A stretch of 64,000 bases of DNA from Arthrobacter gengyunqii. Its GTDB lineage: Bacteria; Actinomycetota; Actinomycetes; Actinomycetales; Micrococcaceae. Numbering within the stretch: position 1 is the first letter of the stretch; every line of letters begins with the position of its first letter. Positions 1 to 35,457 of the stretch are shown piece after piece. A model generated the notes under the pieces. The model did not search any database, had not been told where the DNA came from, and saw nothing but the letters and a program-made list of their open reading frames with translations. Both the position numbers and the translations under genes were made by a program. The stretch covers positions 682,001-746,000 of the forward strand of contig NZ_CP095461.1 of NCBI RefSeq assembly GCF_023022985.1, written 5' to 3'.

Positions 1-2
1 CG

Positions 3-8679: not shown

Positions 8680-11425
8680 GTGCTTTCACCCCGAACTGTT
8701 CCGTAAGCAGTTGTTTGTCGAGAATCACCAGGGGACCGTCGATGCGCAACACCCCGTAGCCTTCCACGTTGAGCAGTTTCTGTGCCTGGGCGACGGCGCC
8801 GTTGATGCGTGCGGCAGGGACCTGGAGCACGACGGCGGCAGCGTCTCGCGGCATCCGTGTACCGGGCGCTGAGACCAAGGCATCCAGGAGAGCAGCTACC
8901 TGCTGATCGGACAATCCCACACGGCCGGAAACTGTCTTCTGGGCCTTGAACGTCTGCGAGGACACCACTGCGGCTCCGATCGAGGTTTCTCCATCGGAGG
9001 GCTGCTCAGCACCGAGCTCTTCCAGCAAGGACGGTGTGTGGTCCTTGGATGACTCTGTCAGCTTTCCGTTCCGGGCAGGAAGGGGAGCATCGCTACGGTC
9101 GGAAACGGCGATGGACCACCAAAGCGGCTCCTGCGGTGCGGCCAGCTTCCAACCCTCGGGAATGTCGTCTCCGGAGACAAGCACAACAATGGGGACTACT
9201 ACCTCTGCAGGGCTGGCACCACCGTGGTAGCCGGCTTTCACAGGACCGTACCGCAGTGTTTCGTCAACAGCGAGGACGGCACGTCCTCCCTCGGCCAGTA
9301 CGCGGCGGCCCGCCACCAGCACTTCATCTGCACTGACGGTACCTTCATCGGCCGAACGCGACCTGGCGCTGCTGACCGATCCGAAGCTCCGCAGCTCTCC
9401 ACGCCGGCGTTCCACGATGTGTCCGTGGTCGGAGGTCAGGACTACGGTTCGGCCGGCGGACTGGGCGGCAGCCAAGAGAGGTCGCAGGTGACGGATTGTC
9501 TCAGGCGTCCACGTGGTGCCGGCGGGATCGCTCTTATCGAGAGCATCGTCAATGGTATTCAGGACACAGGCCACCAGCTTGGTCTCCGGATCGGCAATCG
9601 CCGTCGCTATGTCGTCCTGCAGAGCCAGACCAGGCCTCGAAGAGTCAAGCGGAGCCTTATGGAAGAGCGCATGTCGAGCAATCCCATGACTCTTCGCGAC
9701 CGTTGCCAGCCCAGACGCTTCCACTGATTGGCCGCCGCTGATCAGCCTTCCGTTGAGCAATGATGCACGGCTGAGCGTAGTCAGGGTCGGCAGGACGGCG
9801 ACCGCTGCCATGCGGTGTTCTGAAGATTGGGGAAGAATCTCCTCCCAGCCCTCATTGCTCCGAAGGATCCCGGAGGCCAGCTCTGCTGCGGTGGCTGCAC
9901 TCATGCCATCAAGCACCAGGAGCAGGGTATTGTGGCTGGCTGCCAAGGGTGCGATAACCCCTGGGAGCAGGTTTTCGAGGGGCCAGACGTGCTTCTCCTT
10001 CGTGACTGCCTTCGCGCCAGGGATGCTGCTATCTGCGGAAGTCCAAGCAGCCAGGAGCGAGGCAAACGCTCGGTCGTATGATCTCCGACGTTCCTCGGTC
10101 AGCCGGAGAATATTCCCCAGGCCCTCGGCGAGTTCTTCGTCGCTGACCCCGGCCGCGGCATCGTTGTAGGCGACGTCGACCCACGCGTATTCGCGCGCCT
10201 GAAGAAGCACCGCTTGGGCGAAGCCAGCAGGTGTTGCCTCCGCGGCATTCAACCAGCGGGCAAGACGGACTGCCGAGTGGAATACCTCGACTCGGGAATC
10301 CTGGGCATCGGCTCGAACCGGGTAGGCCAGGGCATGGTCTTGAACAACAGCCCATGCTGACTCCACGGCCCCAATGCCTGAAGCGGGGAAAGAACGCAGC
10401 GCGCCTGCCAGTTTGCGCAGAGCTTTGGTGAGACCTGCGGGAAGCACGGCCGAGTTTGCAGCCAAATCAGACGCTTGGGCCTTGCCCAGCAGCCGCTCTG
10501 CGGCTTGCAGTGCCGCATGGCTCTCCTGCCATGTTGCGGGCCGTCCCAGCATCGTCTTCACCAGGCTCATTGAGGCAGTGCCCAATGCGGCAAGGTTGTT
10601 GCGCGAAACGGGACTCGGGGAACCCTGCCACAGGTGCTCCAGACGTGCGAGCCCAAGATCGGCCGCTTGACGCTCTCTGGGAGTTGCCGTGGTGAGCGTA
10701 TGCAGCGCCAGCCCCAAGGGAAGAACGTCTTTTCCCTGCCCTGCGCGCAGCAGTTCCCTCAGCGGTGCCTGAGCCTGACCAGCCTTCGCCGTCAGCCAGT
10801 CCAATACGGCATCCGCCAGCTCGCTCCCGGCAAGATCGCGGAGTTCGGTCAGGCGGGCCTCCGCGTTGTTTTGGAAGGTCCAGGCGAGGAGGCTGACAAC
10901 GTCGAGAGGACCTGCGGGCAGACCGAGCTTCCTGGTGGCGACCGCCCCGAAGGCATGGTCTTTGGTCAGGACAGACCCGGGAGCGGCCGGCCACCCGTCG
11001 TCGGGCGTAATGGTCAGCAGACCTTGGGCCACAGCCATCCGGTGGGGGACCTGGGCCAGGGCTCTGTCCAACCGATCCGCGCTGAAACGCTCTCGAACAG
11101 CGTCCCAGGCGCCTGGTGCCTGGATCCGTTGAAAGGCGAAATGGCTGAGCAGCCCGGGCCCGAGATCCTCCTCAGACCGGTCGGTCACGATCACAAGCCA
11201 TTCTTCAGGGGTGTGCTGGTACAGCGCATCTCTCATGGCCAGCGCGGATACGCAGGGCAGAACATGGATTGTCTGGCCTGCGTCGGTCAGCCGCCGTTCG
11301 ATGTCGGGGGCAGGTTCACCGCGCACAGCAAGCACCCGCTGATTGCTGTGCTTGCGTGCGTTGGCGACCAGCGAGCGGACGACGGCGTTGCTCACCGCAC
11401 CGGTTTGGCCTACCGCAATGCTCAT
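8672..11425 (-). CDS. pglZ: PglZ, alkaline-phosphatase-superfamily protein of BREX
   Basis: 917 residues. The N-terminal third is helical. The core holds alkaline-phosphatase-type metal motifs: LLLVLDGMSA (near 507), LTSDHGHIVERR (near 670) and GYHGGASPAEVVVP (near 733). PglZ is the signature protein of BREX; its enzymatic role is not settled. I place the start at ATG 11425. It overlaps the pglY stop as ATGA and has GGAAGG seven bases upstream, whereas the in-frame GTG at 11440 has no such site. The C-terminal region (after about 850) resembles a small winged-helix-like domain. PglZ must act with PglX, which has been reported to bind it in other BREX types. Confidence 0.9.
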   Translation of the reverse strand: MSIAVGQTGAVSNAVVRSLVANARKHSNQRVLAVRGEPAPDIERRLTDAGQTIHVLPCVSALAMRDALYQHTPEEWLVIVTDRSEEDLGPGLLSHFAFQRIQAPGAWDAVRERFSADRLDRALAQVPHRMAVAQGLLTITPDDGWPAAPGSVLTKDHAFGAVATRKLGLPAGPLDVVSLLAWTFQNNAEARLTELRDLAGSELADAVLDWLTAKAGQAQAPLRELLRAGQGKDVLPLGLALHTLTTATPRERQAADLGLARLEHLWQGSPSPVSRNNLAALGTASMSLVKTMLGRPATWQESHAALQAAERLLGKAQASDLAANSAVLPAGLTKALRKLAGALRSFPASGIGAVESAWAVVQDHALAYPVRADAQDSRVEVFHSAVRLARWLNAAEATPAGFAQAVLLQAREYAWVDVAYNDAAAGVSDEELAEGLGNILRLTEERRRSYDRAFASLLAAWTSADSSIPGAKAVTKEKHVWPLENLLPGVIAPLAASHNTLLLVLDGMSAATAAELASGILRSNEGWEEILPQSSEHRMAAVAVLPTLTTLSRASLLNGRLISGGQSVEASGLATVAKSHGIARHALFHKAPLDSSRPGLALQDDIATAIADPETKLVACVLNTIDDALDKSDPAGTTWTPETIRHLRPLLAAAQSAGRTVVLTSDHGHIVERRRGELRSFGSVSSARSRSADEGTVSADEVLVAGRRVLAEGGRAVLAVDETLRYGPVKAGYHGGASPAEVVVPIVVLVSGDDIPEGWKLAAPQEPLWWSIAVSDRSDAPLPARNGKLTESSKDHTPSLLEELGAEQPSDGETSIGAAVVSSQTFKAQKTVSGRVGLSDQQVAALLDALVSAPGTRMPRDAAAVVLQVPAARINGAVAQAQKLLNVEGYGVLRIDGPLVILDKQLLTEQFGVKARG

Positions 11426-14400
11426 TCGATTACCTTCCACGTAACCTCAACGCGCTTGCCGGGGTGCTGCCGGATAAACTGCTGTACCTTGCGGGCGGCG
11501 TCATGGGCATCATCCCCCAGCCAAGTGCCGTTATTGGGACCGGGCCCGGGCTCAACCGGACCGGGCCCGGGGTCAACCGGACCGGGCCCGGGGTCAACCG
11601 GACCGGGCCCGGGGTCAACCGGACCGGGCCCGGGGTCGACGGGGCCGGGCCCGGGGTCGACGGGGCCGGGCCCGGGGTCGACGGGGCCGGGATCAACCAC
11701 GATGGCGGAGAGCCAAGCAATCATTTCGTCGACGGCATTCTTCAGAACTACCGTGGCTCGCTGTGCCTGTTCGTGGGAACGGAGCCCCTGTGTCAGGCGA
11801 TCCAGGATCGCCTGGGCGCCGTCGGCTCGGGCGTCGTGGCTCTTCGCAGCGTTGAAAGCCGGGGCAAGCCGGGTCCAATCAAAGTTCCGGAGTGCCGTCG
11901 TTACTTCCTTAGCCTTTGCCAAAGATGCAGCGGCTTCCGGCGCAGTGGCCCCGAAGTCCAACTTCGCCAGAGACTGAATCAATGTGACACCACTCTGGTG
12001 CTGCAGTATTTCCAAGGCGTTCGCCATTTGTTGGGCGAGCTTGAGCCGCGGCCCGCCATCCGATCCCAGACGGGGTACTGACTCCTCAAGCACCTGGACG
12101 AGACCGGCGGCATCCGGCAATGCGCGTCTAACTGCAGCATGGACGGCATCAGTCAGGTTGGCTACCGCCGCTGGCGTTCGGTATTTATTAGCTTCGATTC
12201 CGAAAACCCCGCCGGCGACGGTTCGTGCAGCTTCCCATTCCTCGGCCGTAGGCATGGGCTGGGCGCGCAGCTCCATGGAGGGCTGCACCTTGCCAGGCAA
12301 CGGCGTGGTGGGAAGGGGACTTCCATACTGGAACCAGGCACGCTGGCGGAGCAGGCCCCATCCGATAACGATGAGGTCGGAGACATCGTTGTGAAGCCCA
12401 TGAGCGGGTTCAACGGAGTCGATAATTTCCCGCAGTTTGGCGACATTCACCGGATCGTTGTCCTGTACGCCGGCCTTGGACAGGCCGCGCTCAATTGTGG
12501 CTCCCCACGGGCCGAACCGGCCATCTCCGAAGAGAAAATGGGTTTCCCCGGCATAACCAACTTCGAGGGGATTCGCGATCCGACGGATCGGGCGCGGGTC
12601 CGTGGTGTATTCCACCCGCCCTTCCGGATCTGCCGATGCGGCCTCAAGAATCGTTGCGACAGCTTTCAGCTCGCCGGAGGTGACTTCCTTGTCCTCAGGT
12701 TCGAAGCGCGGATGCCCGGGGAAGCTGGATTCGAAGGCACGGCTTACCAGTTGTCGGAAAGCAGCCCCAAGCGTCGCGCCGACGGGTGGTTGCGGCGCGT
12801 ATTCGGCGTCCAGAGAGTACAGAACTTTAACGTGCGATGGGTCATCCACCAGCGCACCCGGAGCCGGTGTAGCGGCACCGTACGCTTGCTGGACAACACG
12901 AAGGAGGCTCTCACGGAGGGCCGCCTGCTGGGATTCGAGGATGCCCCGAGCCTGCTGGCGGTCTACCTCGCTCAGGTGGTTGGCATGGCTGTTCCAACGT
13001 TCCCCGCTCGCGTCCAGGAGCCAGTCCAGAACCACCAAACGGCGGAGGTCCCGCATGGAATCGGGGGAGAGGAAACGGGGAACCCATACAACGGTCTGGG
13101 ATGTGAAGTTCCGGGCCAGGAGGTTCTCGATACGCTCAACATCCTCGGCGGCCGAGTGCTGCTGTTCGTCAAAGGGGTGGTCGACCACAAAGCGCCATGC
13201 CCCTGCAGATGCTCGGAAGTGGTCGTCGGTCAACCAGCCGGCGTCACGCACGTTGCCAAAGACCAGTTCCACCTCCCGCCGGGAACCGCGCCACACGACG
13301 GTGTGACGGTAAACGTTCCAGGAATCAGGCTCCCCGAGGTCCAGGCCGAGACCCTCGGCCACAAGTTTGCGGATCAGTTCGCGCTGGCGGCCGGGGTTGT
13401 CTTCACCTTTGGCCTTGTCGACGATGGACTCGTAATCCACGTTCGAGAGCTGAACCCGGATGATGGGGTTGAGCGGTTCGCTGCTGACATGGATTTCGGG
13501 GATCTCACGCGCCCAGGTCTTCACCTTGGACAGCACAATGTTGGCTTCTCCCCCGGGGAGGGGGGAGGCGATGGAGCCGTGATTCAAGGCGGCCAGCCGC
13601 GATGCTGTGAGCGCTTTGAGTGCGGGGACATTAGGAGCAACAGCCGAGAGGAGCAGCGTCTTCGCCAGCCGGTCGTCTGCGTGGAAGGCAGGTGTCTGCC
13701 GGGCGGGGTCATCGAGATCTGACGCGACCATATTGTTGCTGGCCAAAATCTTCGGAAGCAGCTTTTCCTGATATAGCTGGTTGGCTGCCCGGAACAGAGC
13801 AGCAGCCTGCGCGTCAAGAGCAGCCCCTGCCTGGCCCTTCACGATGTAGTCGAAGCTGTCTCCGACCGGAATGACGTCTTCAATGCCCATGCTGCTTCGC
13901 CGGTCCACCAGCATCTGCTGCATGACCTTGAGTGCAGTGCGGTCACGCTGCATAACGCTGGAGAGGGAGCGAAGTGTGGAGACTAAAGCAGGAGCGAAGG
14001 GGTATGTGAGTCGGAAAGCCTTTTCATCCGAACCGCGGTGCCGATCGTCTGCATTGACCCCGTCCAGAAGAACGTCCCAGACCTTGGGATTGCGGTCCAG
14101 CCGCACGAACGCATCATTGATCGCTGCCTGCGCATCGGCATCACGGGGTTTGAGCAGCCGCTTGCTGGCTACGAAGGGCAGGTTATCGTCGCCCAACTCG
14201 ATGCGGGCAAACCGGCCCTCCTGGTGCCGGAAGGCGGACTCCAGCGCCTCCTGCTGGGCGCCGTTTGCACCGGCGTCGGCGAACCACTTTCGGAGGTCCA
14301 TCTGCCGTGCAACGAAGGAGACGAGCGGCGCCGGCAGGCTTCCATAGGAACCCTCGACGAGCTTTGTCAGTTTCTGTGACTCGCGGCGGAAGAAGGCCGG

Positions 14401-15231
14401 CTCATGCATACCGAATGCGAGCCAGAGAACCAGTTCATCCAGGAACAAAACGACGGCGTCGTAGCCCAGGGCTTTTGCATGAGCAGACATCGCCGCCAGC
14501 CCTGTGTCCAGGTCCACGTATTCACCCGACCGGACGTAGGAGCCGTAATAAGCCTGAACCAAGGCGCTGACCAGAGCCTGCCGTTCGGAACTCTGTGGGG
14601 CGGCCGTGCGGGCAGCCTCATATCGCTCCAGGTCCCAGCCGGTTGAGCCGAGAACTCCGGCCCAGACATCGTCGTCGGAGCCGCCGCCGAGTCCCTGAAG
14701 GAACTGCTGGTCTCCCATTGTCTGCCGCAGTTTATCTGCGTCCTGCAGCAGGGCATCCGAGGCAAAGAGTCCGGGCAGAGGCGCGTCTGGATGAACGGCT
14801 TGAATCCGTTTGATGTAGGCGTCAAAAATGACCTGCTCCATGGACTTGCCGTCCAGGAAGTGGAATGCCAGGGGCAGGATTTTCTTGTCGCGCAGAACCG
14901 GGTCGTGCCTGAGCACCGTTTCCTGCAGCTCGGGGACGGCCCGTGCCTGCGGGTCCTGGAGCAAGAGGGCATGGAGGACCGCCATGAAGTGCGACTTACC
15001 GGAGCCGAAGGAACCCGTCAGGAAGGCACCCCGGTTGATGCCTGTGGTTACCGCATCGGACACGAGGTCCAGTGCCTGCTCGAAGGCATCGACCAGGGAC
15101 GGCGTGACAACGTAGTCGTCAAGGGCATGTTGTGCCCCCGTGCCGCTGACGGCGTCAGTGAGACGAAGGACGTAGTCTTCGACGCCCGCCCGGTCAGGGA
15201 TATCGAAAACGTCGCGAAGCAGGATGGTCAT
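11422..15231 (-). CDS. pglY: PglY, large P-loop ATPase of type 2 BREX
   Basis: 1269 residues, the usual size of PglY (the type 2 counterpart of BrxC). Walker A is GSFGSGKSHF (73-82) and a Walker B-like VVLFLDEL lies near residue 257. A long helical middle follows. Near the C-terminus (about 1178-1230) is a Pro-Gly-Pro-Val-Asp repeat linker, listed separately, and then a conserved tail of about 35 residues. The gene starts ATGA-overlapped with the second pglX, whose last codons carry the ribosome site AAGGAG. It also ends ATGA-overlapped with pglZ, so translation of the three is coupled. ATPase activity was shown for PglY of the Streptomyces Pgl system, as I recall. Confidence 0.9.
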   Translation of the reverse strand: MTILLRDVFDIPDRAGVEDYVLRLTDAVSGTGAQHALDDYVVTPSLVDAFEQALDLVSDAVTTGINRGAFLTGSFGSGKSHFMAVLHALLLQDPQARAVPELQETVLRHDPVLRDKKILPLAFHFLDGKSMEQVIFDAYIKRIQAVHPDAPLPGLFASDALLQDADKLRQTMGDQQFLQGLGGGSDDDVWAGVLGSTGWDLERYEAARTAAPQSSERQALVSALVQAYYGSYVRSGEYVDLDTGLAAMSAHAKALGYDAVVLFLDELVLWLAFGMHEPAFFRRESQKLTKLVEGSYGSLPAPLVSFVARQMDLRKWFADAGANGAQQEALESAFRHQEGRFARIELGDDNLPFVASKRLLKPRDADAQAAINDAFVRLDRNPKVWDVLLDGVNADDRHRGSDEKAFRLTYPFAPALVSTLRSLSSVMQRDRTALKVMQQMLVDRRSSMGIEDVIPVGDSFDYIVKGQAGAALDAQAAALFRAANQLYQEKLLPKILASNNMVASDLDDPARQTPAFHADDRLAKTLLLSAVAPNVPALKALTASRLAALNHGSIASPLPGGEANIVLSKVKTWAREIPEIHVSSEPLNPIIRVQLSNVDYESIVDKAKGEDNPGRQRELIRKLVAEGLGLDLGEPDSWNVYRHTVVWRGSRREVELVFGNVRDAGWLTDDHFRASAGAWRFVVDHPFDEQQHSAAEDVERIENLLARNFTSQTVVWVPRFLSPDSMRDLRRLVVLDWLLDASGERWNSHANHLSEVDRQQARGILESQQAALRESLLRVVQQAYGAATPAPGALVDDPSHVKVLYSLDAEYAPQPPVGATLGAAFRQLVSRAFESSFPGHPRFEPEDKEVTSGELKAVATILEAASADPEGRVEYTTDPRPIRRIANPLEVGYAGETHFLFGDGRFGPWGATIERGLSKAGVQDNDPVNVAKLREIIDSVEPAHGLHNDVSDLIVIGWGLLRQRAWFQYGSPLPTTPLPGKVQPSMELRAQPMPTAEEWEAARTVAGGVFGIEANKYRTPAAVANLTDAVHAAVRRALPDAAGLVQVLEESVPRLGSDGGPRLKLAQQMANALEILQHQSGVTLIQSLAKLDFGATAPEAAASLAKAKEVTTALRNFDWTRLAPAFNAAKSHDARADGAQAILDRLTQGLRSHEQAQRATVVLKNAVDEMIAWLSAIVVDPGPVDPGPGPVDPGPGPVDPGPGPVDPGPGPVDPGPGPVDPGPGPVEPGPGPNNGTWLGDDAHDAARKVQQFIRQHPGKRVEVTWKVIE
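11537..11699 (-). repeat. 21-bp tandem repeat inside pglY coding a PGPGPVD linker
   Basis: Seven copies of a 21-bp unit centred on GGGCCCGGG, plus a truncated eighth. Each encodes PGPGPVD or PGPGPVE. Four spacers read TCAACCGG and three read TCGACGGG, so the array splits into two sub-blocks, which suggests recent duplication by slippage. The frame is kept, so copy-number changes would only lengthen or shorten a stiff proline-rich linker. Confidence 0.9.
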
Positions 15232-18200
15232 GCGTTCTCCTTCAGGGTGCGGCGGCCGCGGGGGGCCGCCGCTGGGCGCCAGGCTTTGAGGTCAGCGGCG
15301 GTGAGGTTGAGTTGGGTCATGCGTTCTTCGAGCTGGCCGGTGCAGAAATCGGCCATGCTCATGCCAAAGGACGGGTCCAGGTCGGCGTGCCATTGTTTGA
15401 CCCAGGGCAGGACTTCGGCCATCCCCGCCACGAGGGGCACCAATTGGGCGTCGTCGGCACCTTCGGAGCGGCGTTCGTCCATGAGGGTAGCCAGGACCAG
15501 GAACTGCTGCACATGGTCCCACCCCGCCCACCCCAGCAGCAGGGTCGGATCGGTGGAACGCCCGGCACCCGGGTAAAGGATGAACCGCTCCTTAGGGACA
15601 TCGAGTTTCCCGCGGGCCTGCCACCAGGATGCTTTCCGGAAGTCGGTGTTGGTGTATTTGGGCGGAACCGGGATTTTGCCGACGTCTTCACCATTGTCTT
15701 CCCGGCGCTGCAGCTCCCAGGTCTCTTCCCAGGCTTCTCGTTTGCGCAGCCCGGGTTCCTTCAGCCGCTGGGCGGCGAGGTAGGGGACAGCCTCATCGGT
15801 GAGCAGGCGGGTGAGGGCCTTGACGACGTCGACGTCCACGGTCCCGTCCCAGAGAGCGAGGACACCGACCAGGTCCGTATCCCGGGTGACCATGTCCGCG
15901 AGCTGGGAGATGCTGCGGGCAGCCGGTCGTCCCTGGGCGTCGAACCAGTAGGAGCGGTCCTCGAGTCGGTTCAGCAGCCAGGTCCGCAGGGCGCGTTCTT
16001 CCTGCTTCTCCCACGGCTCAGTGGCCCACCGGCGTTTGTATTCGGGTTTTTCCAGCAGTCGGATGTTCGGGTTGGACTCGATGATGTCCAGACGTCGCTG
16101 CACGAGGTCCCGGTACGCTTCGGGCCACTCCTCCGGCAAGAAGGTAATAGGTGTGGAGCCGTGCCGCTGGAACCATGTGGACGTCGATTCCCCGGCGGCG
16201 AGCTGCCGTGCGAGGACGATTTCGGACGTGCGCTGGCCCAGCACGAGTTCGGGCAGGTCTTCACCGTGGTAGGTCAGGTCCTCATCGGTCAGGCCGTAGA
16301 GGCGGTAGGTTTCCCAGTCCAGTTCTTCCTGTGCCGCTACCATCTGGCCGAGGATGCTCTGCGATTGCTTGTGTGCCTCTTCGATTGCGGAGGCGGTTGG
16401 AGTGCCGTCCATAACGAGTGCTGCGGGTGTGGAAACAGCAAGCGACTGGGCGAGTGAGTCCAGCTGGCTGCCGCGCTTCAACGGCAGCACAGAAGGGAGA
16501 GGGAAGTCCTGGAGCGTCGTCCCCGTGAACTCGTAACGGTCGGACCAGGGCTGCTGCGAAACGCGCGCACCGTCCTTACCCACCGGGTCCCCTCCCTTCG
16601 GGTAGCTGTTTTGCTTCAGCCAGAAACACGCCGTGGAGGAATTTAGCACACCAAGCAGGGCAAGATGTTCTTCTTCCGTGGCACCTTCGGGCAACTTGAT
16701 CACCGGAGCGGACCTGTTGAAGACCTTCCCGCCCCGGTCGAGCACGAAGTGGTTATGCGTCGCAACGAAGGCAAAGGTGATGGACAGCGGTGACCTGTAG
16801 GGGGCCAGGGTGTATTGCATGTATTCCCACCAAGACAAACCGGCATCAGCCATGTTGCCTTGGAATGTACTGCGCGACACGAGGGTCGCTCGCCAGGGCC
16901 ACAACTCCTGGCGGATGCCGTCATCGATCACCTTCTTTGTCCCGTACTCGTACGGGAAAATCAGTTGGGTGTCGAGCGTCGATACCCAATCTCGCAAGTT
17001 GTCGCCCATAACGAAAGGCCGCAATGCGGCAACGGTTTTTTCGTTACGAGGCCTCCACCCAATGGGGCGCATGAATGCTTCGTCGGCGCCTGCTCGGATG
17101 GCTCCACCGATTTGCCCGGAAACCCTCTGGCCAAGGCTTGCCTTGGACGATCCCTCGATACGCTTGGCAACTTCTGAAACCCCGCCGCCTGAGAGGCTCC
17201 AAGGGTGGGTGGACAGTCGGTCCCGTGGAAGGTCAACAACGGTGACCCATTGTCCGTCGTGGCCCGGGGCTTCGAGGTTGTCGATGATGGAGCGCCAGAC
17301 TTTGCCCGCTGCGGGGTTTTCCGGTCGTCCTGGTTCGCCCTGGACACCGAGAACGGCACGCACGGTTTCTGTCCTGGGCTGCTGGTGTTTGCCGATGAGA
17401 ATGACAGTCGGGGTGCCATGCCCGGGAATGTAGGCACCGGACGTGTCAATCACCGCACGCAGGTCCTGCCGGACGAGGTATTCCTCGATCAGCTTGGTCC
17501 CGAATTCCCGTTTCATGAACGAGTTGGAGGTGATCTGCCCCGTCCAACCGGCGGGCTGGGTATCGGTTCCATGTTTGGCGAGACCGAAGAAGCGTTCCAT
17601 GAACGGCACGGTCAACGCGTACGTGCCTTTACAGGTCGAGTAAAGCTTCCGGTACGCGGCATTGAGGGTTTTGTCCTTGACGGTGATGTAGGGCGGGTTG
17701 CCCACGACCACGTCGTACTGACCGGGCGAGAGGATGGATTTGAGCTGGTCCAGGTCCTCGGTGGCGTATGTGAAACCGGAAAGCTTGGCGTCGCCGTCGA
17801 AGCCCTCGAACTGGAATTCGCGCTGGGCTTGCCCGTGCAGCAGGGAGTCGCCGGCGGCGAGGTGGAACGGGAAATCCGGTGCCATCTCGAGGTTCAGCTC
17901 ACCGGTCGCTTTCAGCGCAGCGATGGTCAGGCGGAACCGTGCAATCGCCACCGCCGCGGGGTTCAAATCCACTCCGTGCACGGCGTCGAGAGCCTTGCTT
18001 ACTCGTTCCCGGGTTTCCAGGTTCGGCGCCTTCGCATCCCAGGCGTCCAGGAGCCGTTCGAAGGCACCCAACAGGAAGTGGCCCGATCCGCAGGTCGGGT
18101 CAATGAGTTTGAAGCCCTCCAGAGGACGCTCCGCCAGGGCAGGGTTGAGGGTCTGGTCGAGGATGAACTCCTCTACAAACTCCGGGGTCTGCAGCAGGGC

Positions 18201-18791
18201 GAAGGTCTTCTTCGCGTATTCGGACAGGTCCTGGTACAGGTCACCCAGGAAACGGGTGGAAAGTTCCTTATCTGCAAAGTTGTAGAGCAGGTTGTCGTTC
18301 TCATCGGTGGCACGCCAGAAATCCAGGATTTCCTTGGCCATCCCGCCCGAGGGGGAGACCTGCCAAAGGGCTGCATGTTCTCCGACCAAGCCGGCGGTGG
18401 CGGGGAACCGGCGCAGGTGCTTCACGCCTTCGAGGATCCATTCCCGCCAGGTCGACTCCGGGTGGGCACGGAAGAACGCGTTTTCGGCGTCGAACGCTTC
18501 CTGCCTGCGGGGGCCGGGACCGGAAATCCAAACCTTGGAGAGCAGCGAATTGTCTTCGCAGAAGCGCAGGAACACAGTGGTCAGGACCCAGCCGACCGCG
18601 GACTGGGTGATACGGTCATCGCGCCAGGACACCCAGGCGGAGGAGGTCCGTCCGGCGTCCAGTGCTGCCTGGTGTTCCTGCTGCCAACGTGCCTTCCGCT
18701 CAGTGTCGTCCTGAAGCCGAACCCGCAGGTCATCCTCCACCCGCAGCACGAGCTTCTGCAGCTTCGGGGTGAGGTCCTTGCCAATGGTCAT
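15228..18791 (-). CDS. pglX: PglX copy 2, adenine-specific DNA methyltransferase of BREX
   Basis: 1187 residues. Methyltransferase motif I is [10 protein letters not shown] (231-240) and the catalytic motif IV is NPPYIT (365-370), as in N6-adenine methylases. BREX PglX marks host DNA and lets the system recognise unmarked phage DNA. This copy lies directly behind an almost equal one and overlaps it by ATGA at 18788-18791. It differs from it mainly at residues about 536-665 and 725-754, which lie where target recognition is expected. The last 215 or so codons are identical at DNA level by eye. Both motif sets are intact, so neither copy looks dead. Confidence 0.92.
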
Positions 18792-21700
18792 GCGTTCTCC
18801 TTCAGGGTGCGGCGGCCGCGGGGGGCCGCCGCTGGGCGCCAGGCTTTGAGGTCAGCGGCGGTGAGGTTGAGTTGGGTCATGCGTTCTTCGAGCTGGCCGG
18901 TGCAGAAATCGGCCATGCTCATGCCAAAGGACGGGTCCAGGTCGGCGTGCCATTGTTTGACCCAGGGCAGGACTTCGGCCATCCCCGCCACGAGGGGCAC
19001 CAATTGGGCGTCGTCGGCACCTTCGGAGCGGCGTTCGTCCATGAGGGTAGCCAGGACCAGGAACTGCTGCACATGGTCCCACCCCGCCCACCCCAGCAGC
19101 AGGGTCGGATCGGTGGAACGCCCGGCACCCGGGTAAAGGATGAACCGCTCCTTAGGGACATCGAGTTTCCCGCGGGCCTGCCACCAGGATGCTTTCCGGA
19201 AGTCGGTGTTGGTGTATTTGGGCGGAACCGGGATTTTGCCGACGTCTTCACCATTGTCTTCCCGGCGCTGCAGCTCCCAGGTCTCTTCCCAGGCTTCTCG
19301 TTTGCGCAGCCCGGGTTCCTTCAGCCGCTGGGCGGCGAGGTAGGGGACAGCCTCATCGGTGAGCAGGCGGGTGAGGGCCTTGACGACGTCGACGTCCACG
19401 GTCCCGTCCCAGAGAGCGAGGACACCGACCAGGTCCGCGTCGCGGGTGACCATGTCCGCGAGCTGGGAGATGCTGCGGGCAGCGGGACGTCCCTGGGCGT
19501 CGAACCAGTAGGAGCGGTCCTCGAGTCGGTTCAGCAGCCAGGTCCGCAGGGTACGTTCTTCCTGCTTCTCCCACGGCTCAGTGGCCCACCGGCGTTTGTA
19601 TTCGGGTTTTTCCAGTAGCCGGATGTTCGGGTTCGACTCAATCAGGTCCAGACGCCGCTGGACAAGGTCCCGGTACCCTGACGACCACTCCTGGGGCAGG
19701 GCGGTAATTGGGGTGGAACCGTGCCGCTGGAACCACTCAGGCGCCTGCTCACCCACGGCTATGTTGCGGGCGAGGACGATCTCGAAGGCTCGCTGGCCCA
19801 GCAGGAGTTCGGGCAGGTCCTCACCGTGGTAAGTCAGGTCCTCATCAGTCAGGCCGTAGAGGCGGTAAGTTTCCCAGTCCAGTTCCTCCTGCATCACCAC
19901 CATCTGACCCAGAATGCTCTGGGAGGTCTTGCGTGCTTCTTCAAGGGCTGAAGCGGTGGGGGTGCCATCCTCGGTGAGCGCTGCAGGTGCGGAAGCTGCA
20001 AACGACTGAGCGAGAGCATCCAGCTGGCTGCCGCGCTTCAAAGGCAGCGCAGCAGGGAGCGGGAAGTCTTTGAGCGTCGTCCCAGTGAACTCAAAGAAGC
20101 GTTCCCACTCGCTGCTGGCGATTCCTCCGCCAATACCGCCGTTTCCCTTGTCGTGGCTGTTTTGCTTGAGCCAGAAACAAGCGGTAGAGGAATTCAGGAC
20201 CCCGAGCAGGGCAAGGTGTTCCTCTTCCGTCGCACCTTCCGGAAGCTTGATAACGGGTGCGGACCTATTGAAGACTTTCCCGCCGCGGTCGAGCACGAAG
20301 TGGTTGTGCGTCGCCACGAATGCGAAAGCTATCGAAAGGGGGTTGCGGTATCTTGCAGGAAAGAACATTGAGTGGTCAAACCAGCGTAACCCGCGCTCCG
20401 CCTTAGTTTGCTGGAAGTCCAGCTGGGTTTCGAGCCCCCGCCGAACCCGCCAAAGGTACCGTTGTGCAGCGACAGTTAGCTCTTTCGGTGCACCCTGAGA
20501 GTCATACGGAAAGACAGTGCAGTTGGCAGGTTGCAGTCGGAAATCCCGCACTTCCTCGCCCAGGACAACAGGCACCGTGTCCGCGTCGAGTTTTCGCACT
20601 CCACGACTGGAGAGGGGAAGGAAGAATGCCTCGTCGTTACCCGTGTGGGTGGTTCGTCCTATTTCCGCAATCGCTCGGCGCAGAGCTCTGTGGTGATACT
20701 CATTCATGAGCGCGAGGAGTCCGCTGGCACCGCCGCCGGTGAGACTCCAAGGATGGGTGGCCAGCCTGTCCCGAGGGAGGTCAACGACGGTGACCCATTG
20801 TCCGTCGTGTCCGGGGGAATCGACGTTGTCGACGATTGCGCTCCAGACCTTTCCCTGAGCAGGGTCTTCCGGTCGTTCGGGTTCGCCCTGGACGCCGAGT
20901 ACAGCGCGCACTGGTCCGGGGGTCGGCTGCTGGTGTTTGCCGATGAGAATGACAGTCGGGGTGCCATGCCCGGGGATGTAGGCGCCGGAGGTGTCGATCA
21001 CGGCACGGAGGTCCTGCCGGACGAGGTATTCCTCGATCAGCTTGGATCCGAATTCGCGTTTCATGAACGAGTTGGAGGTGATCTGCCCCGTCCAACCGGC
21101 GGGCTGGGTATCGGTTCCATGTTTGGCGAGACCGAAGAAGCGTTCCATGAACGGCACGGTCAACGCGTACGTGCCTTTACAGGTCGAGTAGAGCTTGCGG
21201 TAGGCAGCATTGAGGGTTTTGTCCTTGACGGTGATGTAGGGCGGGTTGCCCACGACCACGTCGTACTGACCGGGCGAGAGGATGGATTTGAGCTGGTCCA
21301 GGTCCTCGGTGGCGTATGTGAAACCGGAAAGCTTGGCGTCGCCGTCGAAGCCCTCGAACTGGAATTCGCGCTGGGCTTGCCCGTGCAGCAGGGAGTCGCC
21401 GGCGGCGAGGTGGAACGGGAAATCCGGTGCCATCTCGAGGTTCAGCTCACCGGTCGCTTTCAGCGCAGCGATGGTCAGGCGGAACCGTGCAATCGCCACC
21501 GCCGCGGGGTTCAAATCCACTCCGTGCACGGCGTCGAGAGCCTTGCTTACTCGTTCCCGGGTTTCCAGGTTCGGCGCCTTCGCATCCCAGGCGTCCAGGA
21601 GCCGTTCGAAGGCACCCAACAGGAAGTGGCCCGATCCGCAGGTCGGGTCGATAAGTTTGAAGCCCTCCAGAGGACGCTCCGCCAGGGCAGGGTTGAGGGT

Positions 21701-22339
21701 CTGGTCGAGGATGAACTCCTCTACAAACTCCGGGGTCTGCAGCAGGGCGAAGGTCTTCTTCGCGTATTCGGACAGGTCCTGGTACAGGTCACCCAGGAAA
21801 CGGGTCGAGAGCTCTTCGTCCTGGAAGTTGTAGAGCTGGTTCCCGTTTTCGTCGGTGGCGCGCCAGAAGTCCAGGATTTCCTTGGCCATCGAACCCGAGG
21901 GGGAGACCTGCCACAGGGCCGCGTGTTCCCCGACCAGTCCGGAGGTGGCGGGGAACCGACGCAGGTGCTGGACGCCTTCGAGGATCCATTCCCGCCAGGT
22001 CGACTCCGGGTGGGCACGGAAGAACGCGTTTTCGGCGTCGAACGCTTCCTGCCTGCGGGGGCCGGGACCGGAAATCCACACTTTGGAGAGCAGCGAGTTA
22101 TCTTCGCAGAACCGCAGGAAAACGGTGGTCAGGACCCAGCCCACCGCGGACTGGGTGATGCGGTCATCGCGCCAGGACACCCAGGCAGAGGAGGTCCGCC
22201 CGGCATCCAGCGCTGCCTGATGTTCCTGCTGCCAGCGGCTCTTCCGCTCGGTTTCGTCCTGAAGCCTTACCCGCAGGTCGTCCTCCACCCGCAGCACCAG
22301 CTTCTGCAGCTTCGAGGTGAGGTCCTTACCAATGGTCAT
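18788..22339 (-). CDS. pglX: PglX copy 1, adenine-specific DNA methyltransferase of BREX
   Basis: 1183 residues, with [10 protein letters not shown] (231-240) and NPPYIT (365-370). The start ATG overlaps the pglW stop (ATGA) and has AAGGAG upstream. The N-terminal 530 residues and the C-terminal part match copy 2 closely; the central block (about 535-665) is unrelated-looking or strongly diverged. The small loop after KQNS (about 725-753) also differs, HDKGNGGIGG here against [10 protein letters not shown] in copy 2. I infer the two methylases recognise different DNA sequences. An alternative is a recent duplication where one copy is being lost, but no stop or frameshift supports that. Confidence 0.92.
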   Translation of the reverse strand: MTIGKDLTSKLQKLVLRVEDDLRVRLQDETERKSRWQQEHQAALDAGRTSSAWVSWRDDRITQSAVGWVLTTVFLRFCEDNSLLSKVWISGPGPRRQEAFDAENAFFRAHPESTWREWILEGVQHLRRFPATSGLVGEHAALWQVSPSGSMAKEILDFWRATDENGNQLYNFQDEELSTRFLGDLYQDLSEYAKKTFALLQTPEFVEEFILDQTLNPALAERPLEGFKLIDPTCGSGHFLLGAFERLLDAWDAKAPNLETRERVSKALDAVHGVDLNPAAVAIARFRLTIAALKATGELNLEMAPDFPFHLAAGDSLLHGQAQREFQFEGFDGDAKLSGFTYATEDLDQLKSILSPGQYDVVVGNPPYITVKDKTLNAAYRKLYSTCKGTYALTVPFMERFFGLAKHGTDTQPAGWTGQITSNSFMKREFGSKLIEEYLVRQDLRAVIDTSGAYIPGHGTPTVILIGKHQQPTPGPVRAVLGVQGEPERPEDPAQGKVWSAIVDNVDSPGHDGQWVTVVDLPRDRLATHPWSLTGGGASGLLALMNEYHHRALRRAIAEIGRTTHTGNDEAFFLPLSSRGVRKLDADTVPVVLGEEVRDFRLQPANCTVFPYDSQGAPKELTVAAQRYLWRVRRGLETQLDFQQTKAERGLRWFDHSMFFPARYRNPLSIAFAFVATHNHFVLDRGGKVFNRSAPVIKLPEGATEEEHLALLGVLNSSTACFWLKQNSHDKGNGGIGGGIASSEWERFFEFTGTTLKDFPLPAALPLKRGSQLDALAQSFAASAPAALTEDGTPTASALEEARKTSQSILGQMVVMQEELDWETYRLYGLTDEDLTYHGEDLPELLLGQRAFEIVLARNIAVGEQAPEWFQRHGSTPITALPQEWSSGYRDLVQRRLDLIESNPNIRLLEKPEYKRRWATEPWEKQEERTLRTWLLNRLEDRSYWFDAQGRPAARSISQLADMVTRDADLVGVLALWDGTVDVDVVKALTRLLTDEAVPYLAAQRLKEPGLRKREAWEETWELQRREDNGEDVGKIPVPPKYTNTDFRKASWWQARGKLDVPKERFILYPGAGRSTDPTLLLGWAGWDHVQQFLVLATLMDERRSEGADDAQLVPLVAGMAEVLPWVKQWHADLDPSFGMSMADFCTGQLEERMTQLNLTAADLKAWRPAAAPRGRRTLKENA

Positions 22340-25300
22340 GCGGTTGCTCCTTGAGCGGCGGTGGTGTCGGTTTCAGCAGCGGCGTCAATCCATGTGGGGT
22401 CAACGCGGATGAACTGGTTGGGGGAAGACTGAACGGAAAAACCGTCCAGCAACGGACCCTGGTTGGCGCCGAATTGCGGCAGCACAATCCATACGGCCTG
22501 GCCCCGTGGCGTGGCGAGGTCGCTCCACCGCCGGATGAGGTCTCCATGGCCGTACCGGACCAAGGGAGCAGCTTCCACAATCAGAACAGGACGGAGCCTG
22601 CCGTCGGCACTGTTGCTCGCGGCATCCGTAATCGCTGCCTCTACGGCAGGGAGTGCCATGCCGACCAGAGCAGCCAGGCCACGGGTTGCGCGTTGGTCAT
22701 CCGTCTGCGCGTCCGCCTGCACCAGAACGTCCCAGGACGGGAAACGGTCCTGCTGCGTAAGCTTCTTCAACTCGTCCAACAGCAGTGCCGTGACGTCCAC
22801 CCGGCGGGCATTGAACTCGGTTTCCAGCCGGCGGGCCAACGCTTCACACCTGTCAGCCCGGGCGCCCAACGCCAGGAAGGACCGGAGAGTTGCGCTTTCC
22901 CGGAGGCGAGAATCCAAAGCGGAACCACTGCTGACAACCGAACCGGTGTGGGTTGCAGTCGAGAGCCGGGATGAGGAGCCCGATCCGGTTTCGAAGCGTG
23001 TAGGCACACCGTATGTTCCTGAGGTGGGGTCCTGCACGAGATCGAGTTGAGCTTCGCGCAGAAGTTCAGCCAACCTGCCGGCGGCGGGCAGGGGCGGCAC
23101 CGCAGGGAAGCGGACCCGGACACGGTCCGCTATTTCCCGTGCGGAGAGCCGCTGCGGACCGGAGACCCCGCTGAGGGCAAGACGCAGCGCATCCGGCTGA
23201 GAGAGGGAGCGGGGATGCAGCTCGCCGGTGCCCGACGCCGCTGCATCATGGGACAGGCCCGCGGACAGCTTCGTGAGGCGGAGCACGTCGCGAAGCTGCG
23301 GGGATTCAATCCCCGCCGTTTCGAGGACAGCGGTGAGTCGCTGGCGTGCCCGCTCGGCCGGGACAATAGCGGGTTCCATGGGGGTTTCCTGCAGCAATGC
23401 ATCAGCTTCACGGCCGAGCCGCTCGGCGGCATCAAGCAGGGCAGTTTCCTTAGCAACTGCGACCACGATGCCCTCGCGCCGACGAATCTCCAGTGCGCCG
23501 TCGTCGTCGGCATCCGCGCGCCGCAGTGCCCGACCGCGGTCAATCACGAGGCGGAGCAGGCCCCGGGCGATCCGCTCGTTTTTCTCCGTGTGTTCTGATT
23601 CCACCGTTGTAATCGCCAGGATTTCGGACGCCAGTTCGGAGACGCTCGCAACGTTTCCAAGAGCCTCGAGCCGGTCGGAGATCCTCTGCGACAGGGTGGT
23701 GAGAGCGTTCAGCGTGTGGGGATTCTCAGCCCATGTGTTCTGGAGTTTGGTGACGATTTGATTCGCGCGGGCGGCGCTAGTCCGATTGGGAAGGTGCGCT
23801 CCGAGTTTCGCCTGGGTGGCAAAAGCATCAATCGTCCCGTTTACGCCCAGAAGCAGTTCTGCTGCAGAGCGCTGCTGAACCGCCTTGCGGGTTCCCGCGG
23901 TTTCAATCAGCATCTCAGCGAGCGCCATGACGGAAGGAAGAAGGGCGCCGCCAGCTGTTGCGCGCGGAGTGGATTCACCGAACTTCTGGCGCCATGTCTT
24001 GGCTCTGAGGGAGACTTCACGCCGGGTTGACTGTGCTACGCCGCTGAGGTTCGTGAGTCGGACAGGATCAACCGCCAGAAGTTCGCCTACTGTGGCGACG
24101 CCCAGCGGTTCAACGGCCGATAGTGCTCGGGCGGACAAACCTGACCGCTCCAAGAGAGTGGCTACGGTAGCGGCTGCTACCAGCTCGTCAGCGTTGGCTG
24201 GAGCGGTGGTGACATCGGTCGGGAAGACCAATCGCCATTGCTCCAGCATCTCGGTGGCGGTGTCGTGGCGCTGCTTCGCGTCCCTTGCCAATGCGGTACG
24301 GAAGAATGTCTCGAGGCGGGACGAGACAGCAGGATCGAAGTCGCCGGGAGCGATGGTGACCTCGTCGGTGACTGAGGCAGGGTCAGCGAGCGGATCCCCG
24401 TAGTACGGGCTGTGCCCCGACGCCATTTCGAACAGGACTACCGCCGCAGAGTATCGCTCAGCAGCGGAATCAAACCTGCTGCGCACTCCGCCTAGGAATG
24501 GGTCGAGGTACGGCGGAGTTCCCGCTGTCACATCCGATGCAGCGGCGCGGGAAAGGGAAAAGTCGAACAGGACAAGGTGCTTTCCGCTTCGTTCCGCGCG
24601 CACGCCCAAGTTGCCAGGCTTGATGTCGCGGTGATCGATGCCTGCCTTGTCCAGCTGCACCAGCGACTCCAGCAGATCGCGTCCGAACCGCTCCAGCAGA
24701 TCGAGGGAGAGACGTTTGCGGCTGCGAAGCAGTTCGCTGAGCGTTTCCTCACCGGCGCTCTCAAGCAGGAGGGCGCTGCGGTCCCCCACCATGAGCGGGC
24801 CTTCCAAGATCCGGACCAGCCGGGAGCCGGTGAGCGCGCGGAGCACTGCGGCTTCGTCGTGGAGCCGCTGTGCGGCTTTGGCATCCAGTGCCACTTTAAG
24901 GACACGCTGGGTGCCGCCGTCGTTCGCGTCTTCAACGAGCAGACCGACGGCAGTGGAACCCTTGCCCAGACGGCGGAGGACTTTGAAGCGTCCGTGGGCC
25001 AGTACTGCGCCGGGGACGGCGTCGACGGCGTCAACGTCCTCATCGGGAATCTGTTGGGTCTGCGGTGAAGAAAAGATCTCGTCGACGAATTTGCTGACCG
25101 CGTCCAGCCGCTGGCCGGGAGCCGGCCGGGTGGCATCGAGTACAGCGCTGCGGATGCTGGCTGAGACCTCCGGGAGGTCGAGCGACAAATCCAGCCCGTG
25201 CTGGGTCCGGAGCCGCTCCTTCAGAGCAGAGGACGAGACGGACGGTGCCTTGCCGGTAAGAATGTAGTAGGCCAACGCGCCGAGCGAGAATAGGTCGGCT

Positions 25301-26559
25301 TTGATCCGGTCAGCTGATTCCGGACGCCAACGCCCTTCGGGCGCCTCGAAGGCTTCAGTTAGCCAGGCATCAGCAGCGTTCGGGTTGTGTTGCGCGGCGT
25401 CGAACAGGGACGTAACCCCGGCGCCGCCGAGCCTGCTCGCAGCTTCCTGTGAGGCGAGCCCCGCGCTCTGCCAGCCACCAATGAGTACCTTCGGCTGGCC
25501 GTGGCTCATTTTGACCCAGACGGCTTTCGGGCTAAGGCCACGGTGGACAACCTGGTTGCGGTGCGCATAGTCCAGGGCTTCGGATAGCTGGCGGATCATG
25601 GACAAACGGTCCTCCAAGGGCAGACCGTTTGTCTGTTCGGCCATCCAAAGGTCCAGCCGCTGCATATCGTCGGAGTGGTCATACACGAGCCCGACGCCGA
25701 GTTCTGAGTCCACCAGGTCTCGGGGACGGAGCAAGCCGTCATGGGAGAGTCGGCTCATGAGCCTGTATTCATGCTCGGCGATGCGGTAGTTTCGGCTCGC
25801 CTGTGACTGGGCAGCACCCGGACTGGTCATCTGGAAGCGGATACGGACCGGTTCCTCTTTCGCAACCTTGTGGTAGCCGCGCCAGTCCTGCCAATCGGGT
25901 CCTTCGTCCAGGGCGCCGTCCTCAATGATCCAGGACCCGGCTTCGCGTTCGCGGCGCTGCACAAATCCGATGCGCTCCATCAGGTGAACCAGGAGTATCT
26001 CCTGGTTCTGACCGATGGCTGCACCGCGCGGAGGTTCGTTGATCAGCGTGCTGATACCGGGGAGGTGGCTGGTGTTTTCGTTTTCATCCAGCCCGTAAAG
26101 GCCGAGAGCGGACGATGCCGGGAGCTCGCTGCTGAACCCCGGGTGATGGAGGAAGACAGCCTGATTAACGAAGGGAACGATCGCCTTTGGATCGACCGTC
26201 ACGCCTTTTTCGCGGCCCCAGTCGAGCGATGCGGTCTTGAGCTTTGATGCTAGGTACTGTGCTTTCCGCCTGGCCAGCAGAAGCGGGGAAGCCTCGGCTC
26301 GTTTGCCGGCACGCAGCCATTGCGTGTCGTTACCCGTGAGTCGTCCGGAGTAGTACTTCAGCTCAAGGAGGTGAAGCGCACCGCGGCCAAGCAGGAGGGC
26401 GTCAACTTCATGCCAGCCTCCGCGCTCATCGCGGAACTCAAAGTTGCTCCATACCCGGTACGGGCTGGTGTCGGGAAGCTTGGCTTTTAGGTAGTGCAGG
26501 CCTTCGGTCTCATGTGCGAATTGAGACGGGCTGACTTCTACCCAGCGGTTCTGCTCCAC
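22336..26559 (-). CDS. pglW: PglW, NERD-domain protein with two kinase-like domains, type 2 BREX
   Basis: About 1407 residues. The N-terminus has a NERD-type nuclease-like core (EVDALLLG ... LLELKYYSG). A first kinase-like domain follows, with HRGLSP where HRDLKP is expected (near 340), so it is probably inactive. The second kinase has a glycine loop (GKGSTAVG), a lysine in RVLKVALD, HRDIKPGN (near 643) and DFS instead of DFG. A helix-hairpin-helix-like segment and a long helical end follow. PglW is the serine/threonine kinase of the Streptomyces Pgl system. I prefer GTG 26559, preceded by AGGGGG and giving MEQNRWVEVSPSQF; a GTG at 26598 would add 13 residues but lacks a ribosome site. It is the first gene of the BREX operon proper. 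Confidence 0.9.
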   Translation of the reverse strand: MEQNRWVEVSPSQFAHETEGLHYLKAKLPDTSPYRVWSNFEFRDERGGWHEVDALLLGRGALHLLELKYYSGRLTGNDTQWLRAGKRAEASPLLLARRKAQYLASKLKTASLDWGREKGVTVDPKAIVPFVNQAVFLHHPGFSSELPASSALGLYGLDENENTSHLPGISTLINEPPRGAAIGQNQEILLVHLMERIGFVQRREREAGSWIIEDGALDEGPDWQDWRGYHKVAKEEPVRIRFQMTSPGAAQSQASRNYRIAEHEYRLMSRLSHDGLLRPRDLVDSELGVGLVYDHSDDMQRLDLWMAEQTNGLPLEDRLSMIRQLSEALDYAHRNQVVHRGLSPKAVWVKMSHGQPKVLIGGWQSAGLASQEAASRLGGAGVTSLFDAAQHNPNAADAWLTEAFEAPEGRWRPESADRIKADLFSLGALAYYILTGKAPSVSSSALKERLRTQHGLDLSLDLPEVSASIRSAVLDATRPAPGQRLDAVSKFVDEIFSSPQTQQIPDEDVDAVDAVPGAVLAHGRFKVLRRLGKGSTAVGLLVEDANDGGTQRVLKVALDAKAAQRLHDEAAVLRALTGSRLVRILEGPLMVGDRSALLLESAGEETLSELLRSRKRLSLDLLERFGRDLLESLVQLDKAGIDHRDIKPGNLGVRAERSGKHLVLFDFSLSRAAASDVTAGTPPYLDPFLGGVRSRFDSAAERYSAAVVLFEMASGHSPYYGDPLADPASVTDEVTIAPGDFDPAVSSRLETFFRTALARDAKQRHDTATEMLEQWRLVFPTDVTTAPANADELVAAATVATLLERSGLSARALSAVEPLGVATVGELLAVDPVRLTNLSGVAQSTRREVSLRAKTWRQKFGESTPRATAGGALLPSVMALAEMLIETAGTRKAVQQRSAAELLLGVNGTIDAFATQAKLGAHLPNRTSAARANQIVTKLQNTWAENPHTLNALTTLSQRISDRLEALGNVASVSELASEILAITTVESEHTEKNERIARGLLRLVIDRGRALRRADADDDGALEIRRREGIVVAVAKETALLDAAERLGREADALLQETPMEPAIVPAERARQRLTAVLETAGIESPQLRDVLRLTKLSAGLSHDAAASGTGELHPRSLSQPDALRLALSGVSGPQRLSAREIADRVRVRFPAVPPLPAAGRLAELLREAQLDLVQDPTSGTYGVPTRFETGSGSSSRLSTATHTGSVVSSGSALDSRLRESATLRSFLALGARADRCEALARRLETEFNARRVDVTALLLDELKKLTQQDRFPSWDVLVQADAQTDDQRATRGLAALVGMALPAVEAAITDAASNSADGRLRPVLIVEAAPLVRYGHGDLIRRWSDLATPRGQAVWIVLPQFGANQGPLLDGFSVQSSPNQFIRVDPTWIDAAAETDTTAAQGATA

Positions 26560-26666
26560 GCGACCCCCTATGTCGATGTGTTCCCAGTCAGGGGACACTT
26601 CAGATTAGCAGCGCGGGCCGACAACCCAGGGCTGTTGGCCTGCGGAGCGACCCGTGCTTCCTATTG

Positions 26667-28877: not shown

Positions 28878-28942
28878 GACAAACCCTCCAACTCTGAGGT
28901 TTTCGATAGCTCGTAGTCGACATCAGGTTCTTTGAGTGCCAT
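28874..28942 (-). CDS. 22-residue ORF translationally coupled to the GIY-YIG gene
   Basis: ATG at 28942 is preceded by AAAGGG, and the frame encodes MALKEPDVDYELSKTSELEG and two more residues. Its TGA overlaps the nuclease ATG as ATGA (28874-28877). The ribosome site of the nuclease (GGAGG) is inside this ORF. The arrangement is that of a coupled leader peptide or micro-protein. The product is acidic and polar, with no known domain. Confidence 0.5.
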   Translation of the reverse strand: MALKEPDVDYELSKTSELEGLS

Positions 28943-29002
28943 AGTTTGTATCCCTTTGCTTTAGGTTAGTTGAAACGTGCGGGCTGCCAGCGAGGCATTG
29001 CA

Positions 29003-35235: not shown

Positions 35236-35457
35236 CGTCAGATCGAGTGAGCGCTTTCAGGTGCGGCTGGCTGGCTTACGGTAATTACAGGCTACCTTCA
35301 CGCTGCTCTATGCCCGTGCAGACCGGAGTAGGCGTTGTTCTCGGCGAGCACCTTCTCGAAGTTGCTGAGCTATGGAGCGCATTTGCTTCATTCGCGATGA
35401 CGAACGACGTGTTGGAGCGGCGCCGGTCCGGATTCGGCCCCCGCCCCACGTTCTGCA

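Follow-up and report, generated by a model that had tools for sequence, protein, structure and literature searches.

A tandem pair of pglX genes with divergent target-recognition blocks in a type 2 BREX operon of Arthrobacter gengyunqii

A 64,000-nucleotide stretch of the Arthrobacter gengyunqii genome (assembly GCF_023022985.1, contig NZ_CP095461.1, positions 682,001 to 746,000; hereafter the window, whose own numbering is used throughout) contains a complete type 2 BREX (bacteriophage exclusion) operon in which the PglX methylase gene occurs twice, head to tail. According to PADLOC and Pfam, the operon occupies 26598-5195 on the minus strand, in the order pglW-pglX1-pglX2-pglY-pglZ-brxD-brxHI. 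The type 2-specific genes pglW, brxD and brxHI and the core genes pglX, pglY/brxC and pglZ lie in one cluster, with PADLOC matches near full protein length (type 2 gene composition: PMC12839542). The first gene, pglW (22336..26598; PADLOC PglW, 1268 bits), encodes NERD and Pkinase domains (Pfam). It is followed by pglX1 (18788..22339; 1183 amino acids), whose top match is PglX at 1723 bits, and by pglX2 (15228..18791; 1187 amino acids), which scores 1760 bits against REase_MTase_IIG and 1699 bits against PglX. Further downstream, also on the minus strand, are pglY/brxC (11422..15231; BrxC-PglY, 1429 bits), pglZ (8672..11440; PglZ, 789 bits), brxD (7324..8679; BrxD, 674 bits, PF10923) and the brxHI helicase gene (5195..7318; BrxHI, 954 bits). 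Four-base overlaps join pglW to pglX1, pglX1 to pglX2, and pglX2 to pglY, and a AAGGAGAACGC leader precedes the starts of both pglX2 and pglY because both pglX genes end in identical 3′ sequence. The genome consists of one contig of 3.69 Mb (completeness 100%, contamination 0.2%), in which pglX1 and pglX2 are the sole pglX matches at E ≤ 0.001, which rules out silent cassettes elsewhere in it.

The two proteins, X1 and X2, are full length and display the features expected of PglX: an Eco57I/MmeI-type methylase with the S-adenosylmethionine-binding motif I (DPTCGSGH) and NPPY, a target-recognition domain (TRD), and a C-terminal DUF7008 domain (Pfam). Motif I and NPPY are identical between the copies, and neither gene contains a stop or frameshift. 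Both open reading frames (ORFs) stand as a first-pass annotation of this DNA had described them, head to tail and with intact catalytic motifs. Assignment as a type IIG restriction enzyme-methylase (PADLOC PDLC03617, the top score of X2) was rejected, given that Pfam finds no nuclease domain (E ≤ 0.001) and that the gene resides inside a BREX operon. No site-specific recombinase, which the annotation had also failed to see, was found among 33 window proteins scanned with Pfam, a scan that left aside short ORFs and six larger ones to the right of 52.9 kb. Nor do pglX1 and pglX2 contain a slippable tract, the longest homopolymers being 6 nt and no unit of 2-5 nt being repeated four times; slippage of the kind found in Streptomyces coelicolor, where pglX phase-varies through a G tract (PMC4365076), is therefore ruled out.

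Similarity between the two genes is distributed very unevenly. In a codon alignment, the longest identical run comprises 647 nt and reaches the last sense codon (18791..19437 in pglX1 and 15231..15877 in pglX2, minus strand), and none of its 128 fourfold-degenerate sites differs. A second run of 443 nt surrounds motif I and NPPY (21207-21649 and 17659-18101), and the remaining long runs measure 152, 134 and 107 nt. Those of 152, 443 and 134 nt together make up a near-identical core tract (21057..21805 in pglX1 and 17509..18257 in pglX2, minus strand), where a single one of 84 fourfold sites differs over residues 231-378. At the protein level, the frame is 94% identical over residues 1-180, 100% over 181-440 and 99% over 911-1183; the link (441-537) and the spacer (756-910) are at 85% and 81%, and identity falls to 26% in a block at residues 538-668 and to 39% in a loop at 731-755. 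The annotation had estimated by eye about 645 bp of 3′ identity, about 440 bp of catalytic identity, and divergence at residues of about 535-665 and 725-754, all of which agree closely with these measurements. Counted per 258-site block, differences number 25, 22, 11, 0, 5, 38, 47, 48, 47, 7, 0 and 0. When fourfold sites outside both variable blocks were shuffled, an identical run as long as the 128-site 3′ run was reached in none of 10000 trials, and with the 3′ block excluded the 83-site run was likewise reached in none of 10000. The mosaic is far beyond chance, and the sliding alignment that the annotation had proposed yields this mosaic rather than uniform divergence, which the shuffles and per-block counts rule out.

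Silent sites suggest a layered history. Of the fourfold sites, 24/93 differ in the N-terminal part, 1/25 and 1/84 within the core, 5/31 in the region directly following the core and 19/51 along the link. The first variable block (TRD1) has 11/17 and the second (TRD2) 3/7, with 19/33 in the stretch that separates them; the spacer has 36/99 and the 3′ block 0/128. Synonymous divergence (dS) accordingly falls into three layers: the core and 3′ end at 0 to 0.13; the N-terminus, link and spacer at about 0.4-0.6; and TRD1, the stretch between the blocks and TRD2 above 1.2. The ratio of nonsynonymous to synonymous divergence (dN/dS) is 0.03-0.18 in frame segments with enough changes, a sign of purifying selection on the frame. 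In the stretch between TRD1 and TRD2 it is 0.03, and this segment, conserved in protein only, has kept its amino acid sequence constant for a long time. Since its DNA has diverged along with that of the variable blocks, the part that differs between the genes is one contiguous DNA unit. A recent duplication in which only the middle was swapped is ruled out by the frame dS of about 0.4-0.6, and the lack of homogenisation at the 5′ end and in the spacer (dS about 0.4-0.5) likewise argues against a fresh duplication. The annotation had envisaged modules swapped into a homogenised frame with both ends kept alike by gene conversion; the common frame and differing modules stand, as does the homogenised 3′ end, but the 5′ end is divergent and homogenisation is confined to two tracts (amino acids ~179-428 and 914-1188). 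The pair therefore looks like two old, long-separated alleles, homogenised in two tracts that bracket a divergent reader cassette.

The variable blocks probably correspond to the portion of the enzyme that reads DNA. In type 1 BREX, PglX/BrxX is the specificity factor for methylation as well as for defence, mainly through its TRD, whose residues determine the motif (PMC11341690; PMC11842806). A PglX profile built from 53 sequences (X1, X2 and 51 relatives drawn from the 120 listed ones described below) matches CamA, a methylase of Clostridioides difficile solved in complex with DNA (PDB 7lni and others), with a whole-sequence E of about 7e-12, the best region being PglX residues 358-730 (E 2.6e-7). 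The CamA TRD comprises residues 320-577, in which DNA-contact, interface and wedge positions have been named (PMC8187626), and the alignment places the variable block of PglX on it. TRD1 (20342..20719 in pglX1 and 16791..17171 in pglX2, minus strand) contains the equivalents of six named DNA contacts (CamA 346, 349, 425, 438, 439 and 441), and X1 and X2 differ at five of them, with H/R, L/S, S/M, M/Q and F/T at positions 349, 425, 438, 439 and 441. The sixth, position 346, is an invariant Gly in X1 and X2; the residue is given as Asn346 in PMC8187626, the structure chain reads Gln, and an alignment gap lies alongside. CamA wedge positions 455-456 correspond to F-V in both copies (F674, V675), and 472-473 to N-R in both (N691/R692), where other relatives mostly have K-Q or N-R. 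CamA positions 514, 517 and 521 fall beyond the alignment. TRD2 (20081..20152 in pglX1 and 16521..16601 in pglX2, minus strand) sits, by position only, where late-TRD readers of the MmeI kind are expected; in MmeI, Glu751/Asn773 determine position 3, Arg810/Ala774 position 4 and Glu806/Arg808 position 6 (PMC4833311). Transfer of the published contacts of BrxX was dropped, as hhalign to the Escherichia coli HS protein is confident over residues 224-426 (the methylase core) only. Taken together, these alignments suggest that X1 and X2 read different motifs, possibly with one or more bases in common.

Similar modules can be followed among relatives. The set compared here consists of 122 sequences (117 non-redundant), namely X1, X2 and 120 listed of 8000 matches, and is composed of near relatives of X1; the closest named relative of PglX1 among the matches listed is from Arthrobacter koreensis. 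Across the 117 sequences, identity in the frame correlates weakly with identity in TRD1 (0.10) and TRD2 (0.21), and the two blocks are uncorrelated with one another (0.01). Fifteen pairs have frames that are 90% identical or more, and in 13 of them TRD1 identity is below 40%. When TRD1 and TRD2 types are defined by single linkage at author-chosen thresholds of 50% and 80%, respectively (TRD2 being short), 57 complete four-combination squares are obtained; a tally of TRD2 types by regular expression was set aside because many loops remained unclassed. Individual sequences display the same reassortment. P0001 joins a TRD1 of X2 type (99%) to a TRD2 of X1 type (96%), and P0002, from A. koreensis, combines the X2-type TRD2 (100%, as also in P0004 and P0019) with a third, other TRD1; the X2-type TRD1 recurs in P0003 at 95%. 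P0015 (Arthrobacter sp. YN) and P0016 (Pseudarthrobacter sp. NBSH8) are 87% identical in TRD1 and 35% in TRD2. Searches with TRD1 alone returned 280 proteins for X1 (761 candidates) and 108 for X2 (255 candidates), with no protein common to the best 120 of the 280 and all 108. The readers thus look like old modules that have moved among frames, two of which are held by the tandem pair, and the annotation's idea of specificity modules in a common frame is strengthened both by the placement of the variable block on a TRD and by the presence of the same modules on other frames. One further sequence, P0122, is a 1405-residue metagenome ORF in which a DUF6079 (PglY-like) start is joined to a PglX end that matches P0055 at 99% identity along 732 residues; it is probably an assembly or recombination oddity.

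The tandem arrangement itself has no counterpart among the genomes surveyed. Genomes were screened with DUF7008 (PF22654, E ≤ 1e-20), and a second gene was sought within 5 kb of each match. Positive genomes numbered 12/396 in the order, 8/396 in the phylum, 8/295 in the family, 102/392 in the genus of G592 and 50/397 in the order of G706. No tandem was present in the 172 distinct other positive genomes, a count that leaves out repeats and G050 (a partial pglX on a 3.5-kb contig); the two matches in G1145 are one gene in two pieces. All 27 named relative loci on genome contigs likewise contain one pglX, interrupted or partial in two (L030 and L037), so that the survey suggested by the annotation has turned up no other tandem. 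None of 28 other genomes of the same genus matches PglX1 at E ≤ 1e-20. In larger genomes, four of the first-look candidates were scored, and several matches are fragments at contig ends; as draft assemblies tend to collapse near-identical tandems and one strain per species was sampled, the tandem may be commoner than observed. Matches on plasmids occur in 33 records at one place each, six of them covering at least 80%, among which H2 has a split pglX; viral contigs contributed one relative.

Other loci depart from the single-gene arrangement in different ways. In the type 2 BREX loci of three G592-genus genomes (L062, L063 and L064), an additional pglX is located upstream of pglW, on the same strand in G1333 and G1187 and on the opposite strand in G1121. 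The two copies of a locus share 40-44% identity across the methylase and 36-41% across the C-terminus. Their TRD1 is similar among the upstream copies (75%, 65%) and divergent among those following pglW (26%, 28%). In Pseudonocardia oceani (L030, 10001-15636), about 2 kb interrupts pglX between residues 882 and 885 (X1 numbering). Plasmid pTs417 of Candidatus Thiodictyon syntrophicum (L058, 11196-16157) has a pglX annotated as two coding sequences with a hypothetical gene between them, and CopG-like and PemK/MazF-like genes lie between its pglW and pglX.

We consider it probable, with moderate confidence, that one type 2 BREX system is served here by two working PglX proteins with different reader cassettes on a common scaffold, which would mark and guard two motifs. 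Both proteins would be made and would enter the complex, one PglW/Y/Z/BrxD/BrxHI machinery serving two specificities, and the scaffold common to X1 and X2 may represent the surfaces contacted by the remaining BREX proteins. On the history that fits the data best, homologous recombination added an already diverged second allele beside the resident copy. Subsequent exchange between the two would have rendered the tracts flanking the cassette near-identical; the cassette itself would have been kept different, probably by selection, because its conversion would cost the system a specificity. The identical tracts form direct repeats ~3.55 kb apart, so that crossing-over by RecA could leave a single gene in place of the pair. 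A crossover in the core tract would retain the X2 cassette and one in the 3′ tract the X1 cassette, by which a specificity may be lost or switched. More tentatively, and with no great confidence, the locus could be viewed as a two-slot specificity store in which both motifs are marked and TRD1 and TRD2 modules recombine as units; cassettes set between homogenised, RecA-sized repeats could be dropped or reshuffled without a dedicated recombinase, and P0001 would be one TRD1/TRD2 recombination product.

Several observations weigh against the two-motif reading. P0001 is represented by one metagenome sequence only, which might be a chimera created in assembly. Both TRD1 types match 268 of 313 fetched proteins at 1e-6 (BLAST, small database), so the two are distant homologues, "different" referring to identity and not to unrelated folds. 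Five of the ten aligned named CamA TRD positions (346, 455-456 and 472-473) are the same in X1 and X2, and the two motifs may thus overlap partly. TRD2 lacks a scored alignment, as that with CamA stops at residue 730. An extra copy does not necessarily bring an extra motif, since the second BREX methylase of Lacticaseibacillus paracasei Zhang adds no N6-methyladenine (6mA) methylation (PMC10164179), and the type 1 rules applied here may not hold for type 2 systems, given that the S. coelicolor type 2 host lacks detectable methylation (PMC4365076).

It could also be that the tandem is a transient or neutral state, left by single-crossover addition of an allele and awaiting collapse, with a single copy of consequence and no selected role for the other. 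The rarity of the arrangement (0/172 other positive genomes and 0/27 named loci) is as expected of a short-lived state, and the long identical direct repeats would ease collapse. Yet the N-terminus, link and spacer have accumulated ~26-37% fourfold divergence at a dN/dS of 0.08-0.18, with both reading frames intact, which implies selection on both alleles, though perhaps mostly in separate genomes; we regard this account as unlikely, though not negligible. Less probable still is a second PglX that acts as regulator or partner, either in a mixed complex or by tuning the other copy, with a single motif methylated. The second methylase of L. paracasei Zhang was assigned a regulatory role by its authors (PMC10164179), and S. 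coelicolor Pgl is described as a toxin/antitoxin system with PglZ as antitoxin, so that PglX dosage could matter (PMC4365076). However, both copies retain motif I, NPPY, a full-length TRD and the C-terminus, the strongest protein difference falls in the reader, and E. coli BrxX is monomeric when bound to DNA (PMC11842806).

The least probable account, to which we assign a very small chance, is an assembly artefact, the two pglX alleles of a mixed culture having been merged into an apparent tandem. Identical 3′ sequence surrounds the junction, and assemblers err at near-identical repeats, but the single contig with the completeness and contamination given above, N-termini that differ at many sites, and a clean 4-base pglX1/pglX2 overlap, presumably not expected in a single-copy allele, all speak for a genuine pair. 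If two PglX proteins do serve the operon with two motifs, the consequences would extend to how BREX tells self from non-self, which is underlain by one short motif per PglX: two readers in a single operon would widen this discrimination at the cost of one gene, and the BREX machinery would accept interchangeable PglX subunits. As a natural pair that differs most in the reader, X1 and X2 offer a ready test of the residues that set type 2 motifs and of host DNA marking.

The operon resides in a defence island. To its left are the Druantia genes DruF and DruE (window 1-1946; also L060), followed by an 830-residue ORF (2522-5014, plus strand) with no Pfam or PADLOC match. To its right (27939-35235) are ZacA-B-C and a PDC-S14 (DUF4357) gene, and then ordinary genes beginning with arginine deiminase. 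The same-genus genome G001, which has no PglX1 match, contains a PDC-S14/Zac block 94% identical to this one (window 27958-35307; L066) and adjoining the same arginine deiminase gene, and the block is absent from the corresponding site in the other three of four same-genus genomes compared. BREX and Zac thus seem to have been gained or lost separately at this site.

Comparisons can also be made with systems described elsewhere. The duplicated or phase-variable pglX cases of Goldfarb et al. 2015 are reportedly mostly of type 1, where the copies are inverted or truncated and recombinases are present, whereas the A. gengyunqii genes are two intact same-strand copies with a cassette between identical tracts and no recombinase in the 33 proteins scanned. 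The locus nonetheless resembles those duplicated loci in that its BREX cluster has pglX in more than one copy, a situation mentioned in print and proposed to help change specificity (PMC11842806, citing Goldfarb 2015). The open-licence PubMed Central literature searched, as far as its excerpts extend, contained no description of a tandem, TRD-swapped pglX pair in type 2 BREX. The annotation's "not well described" thus holds for this tandem layout, which is new as far as searched, but not for pglX duplication in BREX, which is already known. The G1333, G1187 and G1121 loci likewise combine a pair of full-length pglX genes with one pglW and one pglY, but there pglW lies between far-diverged copies, in contrast to the homogenised tandem described here. 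Like the pglWXYZ system of S. coelicolor, the operon belongs to type 2 BREX/Pgl, here with all six type 2 genes, including PglW, BrxD and BrxHI; it differs in having two pglX genes where S. coelicolor has one, and no slippable tract where that gene has its G tract (PMC4365076). The plan of methylase plus TRD, with position-wise base readers, is shared with MmeI-family (type IIL) enzymes and CamA (PMC4833311; PMC8187626), although PglX here has no Pfam nuclease domain and is encoded inside a BREX operon. Finally, variable recognition domains in a conserved frame are also found in type I HsdS (PMC12707154), but in the pair described here reader and methylase form one protein, and two whole enzymes stand in tandem.

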